This document shows positions 20,311 to 63,752 of a stretch of 64,000 nucleotides of DNA, piece after piece. The position numbers and the translations under genes are program-made. The DNA is from Bacteroidales bacterium (GTDB lineage Bacteria; Bacteroidota; Bacteroidia; Bacteroidales; Bacteroidaceae). Location: contig JAQXRG010000103.1 of the NCBI GenBank assembly GCA_029218405.1, positions 17,216 through 81,215 on the forward strand. Direction: 5' to 3'. The notes under the pieces were generated by a model. That model was not told the origin of the DNA. It was given only the letters and a program-made list of their open reading frames with translations, and searched no databases. Each line of letters opens with the position of its first letter. The first letter of the stretch is position 1.

Positions 20311-20373
20311 TCTTGAACGGTGTTCGAATGCCGTTTGAACACTGTTCGAACCGCGTTTAAACGGCGTTTATAT
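20311..20373. repeat. 11-bp phased array of palindromic octamers (array A)
   Basis: TCTTGAAC ggt GTTCGAAT gcc GTTTGAAC act GTTCGAAC cgc GTTTAAAC ggc GTTTATAT; unit starts exactly 11 bp apart. Confidence 0.9.
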
Positions 20374-60225: not shown

Positions 60226-60429
60226 ATGTTCAACACACAACTCGTCAAGCAAAACAGTCTCCGCGTCTATCACCGGATGAAAGAAATGTATAGATATACA
60301 TTCAGTGAGCTGGAGAAACTCAGTTCACTGACCAGTACCGAACTCTGTCTCGCCCTGCTGGAACTGCAGCGGGAGGGCATGCTGGCTTACGGGAAAGACG
60401 ACAACGGTGTCTATTACAGACGGACCTGA
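60226..60429 (+). CDS. small winged-helix-like protein (67 aa)
   Basis: YTFSELEKLSSLTSTELCLALLELQREGMLAYGKDDNGVYYRRT. Confidence 0.6.
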   Translation: MFNTQLVKQNSLRVYHRMKEMYRYTFSELEKLSSLTSTELCLALLELQREGMLAYGKDDNGVYYRRT

Positions 60430-60514: not shown

Positions 60515-60545
60515 TTGCACAATCCACGCAGAATGATTACCTTTG
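60515..60545 (+). promoter_or_regulatory. putative Bacteroidetes promoter TTG-N20-TACCTTTG upstream of the 22-bp array
   Basis: TTG at 60515-60517 and TACCTTTG at 60538-60545. Confidence 0.65.
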
Positions 60546-60565
60546 TAGGGGCATCGTTGCAACTC

Positions 60566-60675
60566 GTGACCTACGTCGGAGATACTTCTGACCTACGTCA
60601 GAGATACTTCCGACCTACGTCGGAGATACTTTTGACCTTGGTCGGAGGTATTTGCGACCTTGGTCGAAAGTTGTA
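60566..60675 (+). repeat. five tandem 22-bp units with short inverted repeats
   Basis: GTGACCTACGTCGGAGATACTT / CTGACCTACGTCAGAGATACTT / CCGACCTACGTCGGAGATACTT / TTGACCTTGGTCGGAGGTATTT / GCGACCTTGGTCGAAAGTTGTA. Confidence 0.95.
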
Positions 60676-60731
60676 CGGATGACCTTCCAAGCAGAGAAAG
60701 CCCGCCTATTGTATCACTAAAACCACTGACT

Positions 60732-61361
60732 ATGAGCATCAACTACGACTGGTACCCCAGCCCCAAGAAATCCGCCGACGAACCGACCACCCTCCACGTG
60801 CGTCCCGTGTTCAACGGCTCCGTATCGACCGACGACCTCGCCGAGAGCCTGCAGACCGCCACCTCCCTGACCATGGCCGATGTGAAAGCCGTCCTCCAGG
60901 CCCTGAACCGCGAGGTGGGCCGCCAGTTGGCCAGCGGCTGCCGGGTCCACTTAGAAGGGCTGGGCTACCTCACTCCCCGTCTCCGGGTGGAGGGCGAGGT
61001 GACCGAGGACATCCCGCTGCGCGACCGCAACCGAAAGGTCCGCTTCAGCGGCGTGAACTTCCAGGCCGACAAGCGGCTGACCGAAGCCATCGGGGCCGTC
61101 CGCCTGAGCCATGCCCCGAAGGCGACACACTCGCGGGAGCTGGACGAGGCCCTCGTGGAGGAGCGGCTGGCCGACTACTTCATCACGCACGACATCCTGA
61201 CTCGTCCGATTCTGCAACACCTGCTGCACCTCACGTCCTACAAGGCCGCCGCGCTGCTCCGCCGCCTCTGCGAGGAAGGGAAGCTGCGGAACGCAGGCAC
61301 CGACTTCCGTCCGGTCTATGTCCCTGCCGAAGGACTGAACGTATCACGAAACCCAACATAA
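60732..61361 (+). CDS. HU-like DNA-binding protein with C-terminal winged-helix-like extension
   Basis: MSINYDWYPSPKK...SLTMADVKAVLQALNREVGRQLASGCRVHLEGLGYLTPRLRVEG typical of HU-related Bacteroidales proteins. Confidence 0.8.
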   Translation: MSINYDWYPSPKKSADEPTTLHVRPVFNGSVSTDDLAESLQTATSLTMADVKAVLQALNREVGRQLASGCRVHLEGLGYLTPRLRVEGEVTEDIPLRDRNRKVRFSGVNFQADKRLTEAIGAVRLSHAPKATHSRELDEALVEERLADYFITHDILTRPILQHLLHLTSYKAAALLRRLCEEGKLRNAGTDFRPVYVPAEGLNVSRNPT

Positions 61362-61363
61362 AC

Positions 61364-62488
61364 ATGAAACAAACACTTTTGCCCCTGAGACTTGCCGTTG
61401 CGACTGGGAGGACAACGCCCCTCTCGTCCTGCTCAGACAACGCCAAGACTGCCGCCGGCGGAGACCAACGTACCATCACCGACGAACAGCTGGCGCGGCT
61501 GGACTGCTACACCGACCTGCACCTTCATCTCGACGGCTCGCTCTCCCTACCGACCGTCCGACAGTTGGCGAGGCTGCAGGACATCCCCCTCGACCTGAGC
61601 GACGAGGAACTGCGGGAGCGGCTGCAGGTGAACGAGGGCTGCCAGGACCTGAACCAGTACCTGCAGAAGTTCGACTTCCCCCTTACCCTGCTCCAGACCC
61701 CCAAGGGAATTACCGAAGGCATCCAGCTGCTGGCCCAGGAGCTGAAGGACGAGGGCCACATCTACGCCGAGATCCGCTATGCGCCACAGCTGCACTGCCA
61801 GCAAGGACTGACGCAGCGCGAGGTGATTGAAGCCTCCATCGAAGGACGGCGGCAGGCAGCCCTTCCGGTATCGCTCATCCTCTGCTGCATGCGTGGCAAT
61901 GACAACCACGAGCAGAACCTGGAGACGGTCCGCTTGGCCGCCGAGTATGTCGGCCAGGGGGTGGCGGCCATCGACCTGGCCGGTGCCGAGGCGCTCTATC
62001 CCACGTCCGGTTTCGCCGACCTCTTCCAGTTGGCGAAGGGCAACGGCGTGCCCTACACCCTCCATGCCGGCGAGGCGGACGGTCCCGAGAGTGTGAAGGC
62101 CGCCCTCAGCTACGGCACCCGGCGCATCGGTCACGGCGTGCGTTCGGCCGAGGACCCTGCCTTGGTGCAGCAACTGTCCGCCGAGAAAATCACGCTGGAA
62201 TGTTGTCCCACCAGCAACCTCAACACCGCCATCTTCCCCTCCATCGGGCACTATCCCTTGCGCCTGTTCCTGGAGCAGGGCGTGCGGATGACCGTCAATT
62301 CCGACAACCGGATGGTGTCCGCCACGAACGTCATCCGCGAGTTCCAACTGCTCAACGGTGCCTTCCACCTCACAGTAGGCGAGGTGCGGCAGCTCCTACA
62401 GAACAGCATCGACGCGTCGTTCGCCCCGGAACCGCTGAAAGAGGAGCTGCTGGCGAAAGTAAATGAAGCCATCGCCCGCCTGCGATGA
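61364..62488 (+). CDS. add: adenosine deaminase
   Basis: DLHLHLDGSLSLPTVRQLA; TLHAGEADGPESVKAAL; RIGHGVRS; NSDNR. Confidence 0.93.
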   Translation: MKQTLLPLRLAVATGRTTPLSSCSDNAKTAAGGDQRTITDEQLARLDCYTDLHLHLDGSLSLPTVRQLARLQDIPLDLSDEELRERLQVNEGCQDLNQYLQKFDFPLTLLQTPKGITEGIQLLAQELKDEGHIYAEIRYAPQLHCQQGLTQREVIEASIEGRRQAALPVSLILCCMRGNDNHEQNLETVRLAAEYVGQGVAAIDLAGAEALYPTSGFADLFQLAKGNGVPYTLHAGEADGPESVKAALSYGTRRIGHGVRSAEDPALVQQLSAEKITLECCPTSNLNTAIFPSIGHYPLRLFLEQGVRMTVNSDNRMVSATNVIREFQLLNGAFHLTVGEVRQLLQNSIDASFAPEPLKEELLAKVNEAIARLR

Positions 62489-62762: not shown

Positions 62763-63752
62763 ATGAGACAGACAGAAGAACGCTACATCAGTTTGCTGAC
62801 CGACTTCGGCTTCAAGCGCATTTTCGGGACGGCACCCAACAAGGAGCTGCTGATCAACTTCCTCAACTACCTCTTCAACGGCAGAAAGGTGGTCAAGGAC
62901 CTGAGCTACGGAAACTCAGAGCATGTAGGTGACCTCTACACGGAACGGAAGGCCATCTTCGATGTCTATTGTGAGGGAGCGGACGGCGAGAAGTTCATCG
63001 TAGAGATGCAAAACGCATCGCAGAAGTACTTCAAGGACAGATCCATCTTCTACGCCACATTTCCCATACGGGAACAGGCGCCCAAGGTGAAGCACTGGGA
63101 CTACCACCTCAGCCCCGTCTATACCGTAGCACTGCTGAACTACGAAATGAGGGAGACCGCGTTCGACGCCAAGAAGCTCAGACACCACGTGAAGCTCTGC
63201 GACACGGGCACACGGCGCGTCTTCTACGACAAGCTGGAGTTCATCTACGTGGAGATCGCCAAGTTCGACAAGAAGGAGGAAGAGCTGGTCACCCTCTACG
63301 ACAAGTGGCTCTTCGCCCTGAAGAACCTGTCACGGCTGGAACGACGACCTGACGCACTGCGAGACCAGGTCTTCGACCGGCTGTTCCAGGTGGCGGATGT
63401 CTCGAAGTTCACCCCTGCCGAACTGCACGAGTACGAGGACAGCCTGAAGCATTACCGAGACCTGAAGAACTGCATTGACTCGGCGGAAGAAAAAGGATTG
63501 GCTAAGGGACTGGCCAAAGGAAGAGAAGAAGGACTGGCCAAAGGAAGAGAAGAAGGACTGGCCAAGGGAAGAGAAGAAGGACTGGCCAAAGGACGGGAAG
63601 AAGGACTGGCCAAAGGACGGGAAGAAGGCGGCAAAAAGAAGGCGTATGAGATTGCCCTCAACCTCCTGTCACTGGGCGTACCGATGGAAACCATCGCACA
63701 AGCCTCCGGACTGACCTTTCAAGAGATTCAAGTGTTAAAAAAGGATATGTGA
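62763..63752 (+). CDS. Rpn family recombination-promoting nuclease / PD-(D/E)XK nuclease family transposase
   Basis: RYISLLTDFGFKRIFGTAPNKELLINFLNYLFNGRKVVKDLSYGNSEHVGD...FDVYCEGADGEKFIVEMQNASQKYFKDRSIFYATFPI. Confidence 0.93.
   Translation: MRQTEERYISLLTDFGFKRIFGTAPNKELLINFLNYLFNGRKVVKDLSYGNSEHVGDLYTERKAIFDVYCEGADGEKFIVEMQNASQKYFKDRSIFYATFPIREQAPKVKHWDYHLSPVYTVALLNYEMRETAFDAKKLRHHVKLCDTGTRRVFYDKLEFIYVEIAKFDKKEEELVTLYDKWLFALKNLSRLERRPDALRDQVFDRLFQVADVSKFTPAELHEYEDSLKHYRDLKNCIDSAEEKGLAKGLAKGREEGLAKGREEGLAKGREEGLAKGREEGLAKGREEGGKKKAYEIALNLLSLGVPMETIAQASGLTFQEIQVLKKDM
63507..63626 (+). repeat. five 24-bp in-frame tandem repeats encoding GLAKGREE
   Basis: GGACTGGCCAAAGGAAGAGAAGAA units starting at 63507, 63531, 63555, 63579, 63603. 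Confidence 0.95.

Follow-up and report, generated by a model that had tools for sequence, protein, structure and literature searches.

HU proteins are usually seen as weakly sequence-specific nucleoid proteins. In ParB-parS systems, the gene of a DNA-binding protein lies beside palindromic sites of its own, and more copies of these sites are found elsewhere on the chromosome. Among described repeats, the closest relative in form of the array considered here is BrickBuilt of Porphyromonas gingivalis, which consists of gapless 23-nt units and occupies 19 intergenic sites (Klein et al. 2015, PMC4596501). Its shortest copy, BrickBuilt_14 (84 nt), lies between PGN_0871 (-) and PGN_0872 (+), has no TIR-bearing ends and is followed downstream by PGN_0872, which encodes a PF00216 DNA-binding protein (PMC4596501). 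The element is described as a MITE, and its description is not known to name a cognate binding protein (PMC4596501). REP/BIME and other interspersed palindromic repeats are likewise short and intergenic, and occur in many copies (e.g. PMC3733652). As for the protein family HU-HIG (PF18291), its Pfam entry mentions domain fusions only, and no literature on HU-HIG with operator arrays or paralogue-specific DNA codes was found among open-licence papers.

The present array was found in a 64-kb window (the whole stretch of DNA analysed), upstream of an HU-HIG gene. As far as the published description of BrickBuilt goes, the two share short gapless units, dispersed intergenic copies (about seven further loci in the window's genome), imperfect units with one conserved and one variable half, and shared ends. 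They differ in the unit, which is 22 bp here (21 bp in one HU-HIG subclade) rather than 23 nt, in that BrickBuilt extends to as many as 22.8 units, and probably in their ends, which are a long leader and tail with IS5-type terminal repeats in BrickBuilt and short shared flanks with inverted ends here. The array thus appears to be its own kind of operator array, similar to BrickBuilt in form as far as published descriptions show; the statement of an earlier note on this DNA that no described system matches it needs to be qualified for BrickBuilt. The arrangement also recalls ParB-parS, where a regulator gene adjoins copies of its own site and further copies lie on the chromosome, but that system has a ParB-type protein with a ParA partner, whereas the protein here is HU-HIG by Pfam, each site comprises four to five phased palindromes, and several paralogues each have a code of their own. 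With REP/BIME the arrays have in common that they are short, palindromic and intergenic with many copies, about 30% of them between convergent genes; they differ in their fixed 22-bp phasing, nearly fixed unit number and link to HU-HIG genes. We consider it fairly probable, on the comparative sequence evidence set out below, that the array is a double-stranded DNA operator of the downstream HU-HIG protein, and that this same protein represses itself and binds the dispersed copies.

Architecture and position of the array

At 60566-60675, five exact 22-bp units follow one another without gaps, with GAC-NNNN-GTC cores at a step of exactly 22 bp (Table 1). The five contiguous units claimed in the earlier note were confirmed by direct reading, by a tandem-repeat finder (score 123-137) and by a peak in dyad score at period 11, where the array reaches 24 against a shuffle maximum of 20-22 for the 64-kb window and is the sole place in the window above that chance maximum; dyad scores at periods 9, 10, 12 and 13 in the window were at most 21. 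Units 1-3 are near-identical. The linkers are also partly palindromic; in arrays of this build, 10-bp and 12-bp palindromes alternate and one dyad falls in every 11 bp. The covariation proposed for the two pairs outside GAC/GTC is present in units 2 (CT/AG) and 3 (CC/GG), but is wobble-only in unit 4 (TT/GG) and poor in units 1 and 5. Elsewhere in the window, at 20313-20370, there is a further inverted-repeat array of 22-bp period (TTGAACGGTGTTCGAATGCCGT ...) with about three units and the core GAAC-N3-GTTC; what look like a tRNA end and a terminator lie upstream of it, and it is possibly an array with another code.

Table 1. Features of the array locus, in window coordinates
Feature	Position	Strand	Remarks
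Predicted Bacteroidetes-type promoter, TTG (60515-60517) N20 TACCTTTG (60538-60545)	60515..60545	+	Sequence motif
Left flank GGCATCGTTGCAACTCGT	60550..60567	+	Also present at dispersed copies within this genome; matches right flank in inverted orientation
Core 1 GACCTACGTC	60568..60577	.	Read directly
Core 2 GACCTACGTC	60590..60599	.	Read directly
Core 3 GACCTACGTC	60612..60621	.	Read directly
Core 4 GACCTTGGTC	60634..60643	.	Read directly
Core 5 GACCTTGGTC	60656..60665	.	Read directly
Whole array, 5 x 22 bp	60566..60675	.	Second half of the code lies in the 12-nt linkers, consensus GGAGATACTTCC
Right flank (GAAAGTTGTACGGATGACC...)	60666..60700	+	Common to dispersed copies
HU-HIG gene, 209 aa	60732..61361	+	ATG 60732, stop 61359-61361; Pfam PF18291
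C-terminal winged-helix-like domain, residues ~134-200	61131..61331	+	Putative; profile of 16 homologues
Putative recognition helix, residues 166-180	61227-61271	+	Helix boundaries inferred

The promoter-like TTG-N20-TACCTTTG and the start codon of the HU-like gene are both placed as the earlier note had placed them, and transcription is predicted to start near 60550. An autoregulatory operator overlaps or directly follows the promoter of its regulator's own gene, and this array directly follows a predicted promoter, core 1 beginning 22 bp after TACCTTTG. Across genomes, 18 of 35 HU-linked arrays have TAnnTTTG in the 80 bp before them, as against 5 of 122 flanks of dispersed arrays.

The HU-HIG gene and its surroundings

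The downstream gene is a clear member of HU-HIG: residues 1-124 match PF18291 with E = 9.7e-26 and 90.7 bits (curated cut-off 26.2), giving the protein a domain of the HU DNA-binding type. Its last ~75 residues resemble a winged helix, an assignment that draws on sub-threshold profile matches and on the Pfam family name; the best matches of a tail profile built from 16 homologues were mostly winged-helix proteins, all of them sub-threshold, and an AlphaFold model of the protein had a pLDDT of 41. Since the sole match to this protein in the genome collection came from a P. plebeius MAG (90% protein identity), the host is taken to be Phocaeicola. In that MAG (G013/L042), an array stands at the same place before the orthologous gene, with four units and different linkers.

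Several neighbouring features were also recorded. The adenosine deaminase gene at 61364-62488 is probably co-transcribed with the HU-HIG gene under the same operator, because it begins 2 bp past the HU-HIG stop codon. Upstream of the array, a 67-aa ORF (60226-60429), whose product resembles a winged-helix family (DUF2582) below threshold, is kept in G013/L042. Further downstream lies a PDDEXK_2 family transposase gene (62763-63752), in which a 24-bp tandem repeat (63507-63628) encodes GLAKGREE repeats. The window's genome holds a second wHTH-type HU-HIG gene, L256 (G000:C22:1673-2026), which apparently lacks the N-terminal part and is perhaps a pseudogene.

Linkage of arrays to HU-HIG genes

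Genomes carry some 3-17 PF18291 genes each. About 49 GAC-type arrays were counted in the 13 Phocaeicola genomes with arrays; 8 of them, representing about 5 independent loci, immediately precede an HU-HIG gene, where chance would give about 0.3 by our own estimate (about 2,800 genes per genome). In a core-free dyad scan with a threshold score of at least 22, 32 of 112 HU-HIG upstream regions reached the threshold at period 11 but only 0-2 did so at periods 8, 9, 10, 12, 13 and 14; the same score at period 11 was attained by 0.09% of shuffled upstreams and by 6 of 287 controls, where 5 of the 6 are in fact HU-HIG upstream regions seen from a divergent gene. The first dyad is mostly found 100-165 bp before the HU-HIG ATG, and a subclade marked by YDFLPVP has its arrays in a 21-bp version. 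Several lower-scoring upstreams also hold arrays that could be made out by eye only, so within the array-bearing clade the actual proportion exceeds that given by the score.

In a tree of 115 HU-HIG proteins, array-bearers are confined to one half, and the other half (50 rows) has none. Arrays accompany 41 of 63 HU-HIG proteins with the C-terminal domain (35 by score and 6 added by eye) and 0 of 52 without it (p = 2e-15). In G370, from a second Bacteroidales family, HU-HIG genes also carry arrays, and no clear array was seen upstream of the HU-HIG genes of G363 and G380. The link between array and HU-like gene is well supported and draws on many loci, and so is the idea, likewise put forward in the earlier note, that these are helically phased operators of an autoregulating HU-like protein. 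Of the refuting condition named in that note, repeats scattered through the genome with no HU linkage, one half holds: they are scattered, but the linkage is strong.

Paralogue-specific codes

The code of an array, i.e., its core together with the 12-nt linker, differs by HU-HIG paralogue. The window's genome combines GAC..GTC cores with the GGAGATACTTCC linker, G071 combines GACACGTGTC/GACAGCTGTC with AAAC..GTTT, G048 has the same GACACGTGTC/GACAGCTGTC cores with GGCA..TGCT, and other genomes have CACG..CGTG cores with several linkers. G013 has two such pairs side by side: array C73 goes with the window-type gene, and array C9 with another HU-HIG gene. Dispersed arrays follow the code of their own genome: 28 of 48 are best matched by an HU-linked array from it, whereas permutation gave a mean of 9.6 and a maximum of 18, with 0 of 2000 as high as 28, although similarity within a genome could also come from spread by copying. 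G071 and G048 both have arrays at two orthologous loci, one next to a recO-like gene and the other L085/L093; there the place and most of the cores are kept and the linkers have switched along with each species' HU-HIG array, which is what selection of the sites by a trans-acting protein would lead one to expect.

Some arrays are out of step with this pattern (G042:C31, G071:C30 and G048:C52, and G000:C159 of the window's genome, which carries the G013-type code), and the arrays of G043 had no matching HU-linked array among those fetched. On the protein side, the window protein and its G013 orthologue, which has different linkers, show 20 differences, of which 4 fall in the putative recognition helix (residues 166-180); among four orthologues with the CATC code this stretch is almost unchanged. 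The association of change in the putative helix with code (p = 0.04) comes from few, non-independent pairs and from a region picked post hoc.

Dispersed arrays

The further loci in the window's genome mostly hold four or five units of the same array family, and these copies share a flank of about 20-30 bp with inverted ends. Pattern searches, which miss arrays with other cores, found three GAC-N4-GTC at 22-bp spacing in 13 of 61 Phocaeicola and 24 of 301 Bacteroidaceae genomes (reversed-pattern control: zero in Phocaeicola, a handful in the Bacteroidaceae set), and CAC-N4-GTG at the same spacing in 33 of 61 Phocaeicola genomes, with up to 103 matches per genome and zero in controls. Nearly all fetched arrays have four cores, and in the one-contig genome G011 they are distributed round the chromosome. 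Among 53 dispersed arrays, 26 lie between co-directional, 16 between convergent and 11 between divergent genes, and the genes beside them showed no shared functional theme. Isolated GACCTACGTC matches elsewhere in the genome (C72, C103:63136, C167, C187) are mostly coding-like and at about chance frequency, and were left uncounted. A second array, with the core AACATACTTNGCC and a 22-bp period, adjoins the GAC array at L032 1-105 and at the end of L034 (G000:C127, C35); among the HU-HIG genes none with this code was identified.

Alternative explanations

The earlier note had left open a string of RNA hairpins, and an RNA leader element, whose hairpin or hairpins would control translation or stability and might be bound as RNA by the HU-like protein, is consistent with the location of the array in the predicted 5' UTR and with a leader fold far better than that of shuffles (-73.4 kcal/mol, z = -6.1). 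This best fold is one long hairpin and the linkers are themselves partly palindromic, which argues against the five separate mini-hairpins envisaged earlier. Any array of like palindromes would fold well, and the long hairpin looks like a by-product, given that symmetric partners across the element pair no better than units that are not partners (cores p = 0.75, linkers p = 0.65); the same comparison leaves selection for it unsupported. Furthermore, the supposed 4-nt loop is itself part of the self-complementary cores, whose innermost positions pair Watson-Crick in 54-66% of cases (25% expected), and G-U, at 2-4% in cores, is no commoner there than A-C; over all positions of the sense strand, G-U (96) slightly exceeds A-C (72), an excess that comes from the linkers and not from the cores. 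An RNA would not obviously need a spacing kept rigidly at 21-22 bp, most copies elsewhere lie outside leaders, including the 16 of 53 between convergent genes, and an Rfam covariance-model scan returned sub-threshold chance matches only. As direct repeats the linkers agree better (0.66) than as inverted ones (0.55), which gives the arrays a certain polarity. Taken from these patterns, double-stranded DNA sites appear to fit better than RNA hairpins, and an RNA leader element is judged very unlikely.

A functionless chance duplication would account for the near-identity of units 1-3, which is like that of a young tandem repeat, but many genomes show this architecture again at loci independent of one another, reversed-pattern controls gave zero or close to it, and the orthologous array before the same gene in G013/L042 has kept it with changed linkers; this retention of architecture under changing sequence refutes the explanation, to which we give practically no credence. 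More can be said for a MITE-type mobile element, BrickBuilt-like, whose copies would spread by transposition and whose proximity to HU-HIG genes would reflect insertion preference: the copies in the window's genome share flanks with inverted ends, several copies lie near contig ends, and BrickBuilt itself carries that description in its source. Copies outside the window's genome are, however, mutually diverged with exact spacing, arrays persist at orthologous loci across species while codes change in place, and insertion preference leaves unexplained the paralogue codes, the confinement to those HU-HIG proteins that carry the C-terminal domain and the similar placement before the ATG, which together make a mobile element improbable. 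An ordinary regulon, in which HU-HIG is a transcription factor and every dispersed array a promoter operator, agrees with the promoter location of HU-linked arrays and with the dispersed arrays between co-directional (26 of 53) or divergent (11 of 53) genes. Against it stand the 16 between convergent genes, the rarity of promoter motifs beside dispersed arrays (5 of 122 flanks) and the absence of a common theme among neighbouring genes; the 26/16/11 spread over co-directional, convergent and divergent genes makes a purely promoter-based regulon unlikely, and pure operator function fails for dispersed arrays because many have no gene downstream of them. We rate the regulon explanation as rather doubtful, and for the dispersed sites a structural role, in nucleoid or domain organisation, seems more likely than that of ordinary promoter operators.

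Proposed mechanism and implications

From the architecture, the HU-HIG linkage, the paralogue-specific code, the within-genome matching of codes and the persistence at orthologous loci, we infer binding, cooperativity, repression and a role of the dispersed sites, returning to the array as a DNA operator of the HU-HIG protein. Binding of HU-wHTH dimers to the phased palindromes would be cooperative, with roughly one dimer to every 21-22 bp (about two helical turns), and all bound dimers would then sit on one face of the helix; the winged helix would recognise core and linker, and the HU domain would bend the DNA. Since the array directly follows the predicted promoter, its occupancy would block transcription, resulting in negative autoregulation of the HU-HIG gene. 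Each HU-HIG paralogue would have its own core-plus-linker code, and dispersed arrays of the same code, including those in convergent regions, would be further binding sites of the same protein. A bolder proposal, which we advance tentatively and hold to be somewhat less than an even chance, is that Phocaeicola and some other Bacteroidales run several parallel, mutually insulated chromosome-marking systems, in which each HU-wHTH protein would have about 5-50 four-palindrome arrays to itself, most of them serving as architectural sites or domain boundaries and not as promoters, and would keep its level in check through the array of its own gene.

The HU-HIG pattern suggests a hitherto undescribed group of DNA-binding proteins in which every member would have a DNA code to itself. 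According to the family-wide genomic pattern, the branch of HU proteins fused to a winged-helix-like domain would have strong, paralogue-specific DNA sites, both at its own genes and chromosome-wide. The function of a common, little-studied Bacteroidetes family thereby becomes testable in gut commensals, BrickBuilt repeats may gain a binding partner, and natural pairs of protein and DNA code would provide material for studying the evolution and insulation of recognition codes.
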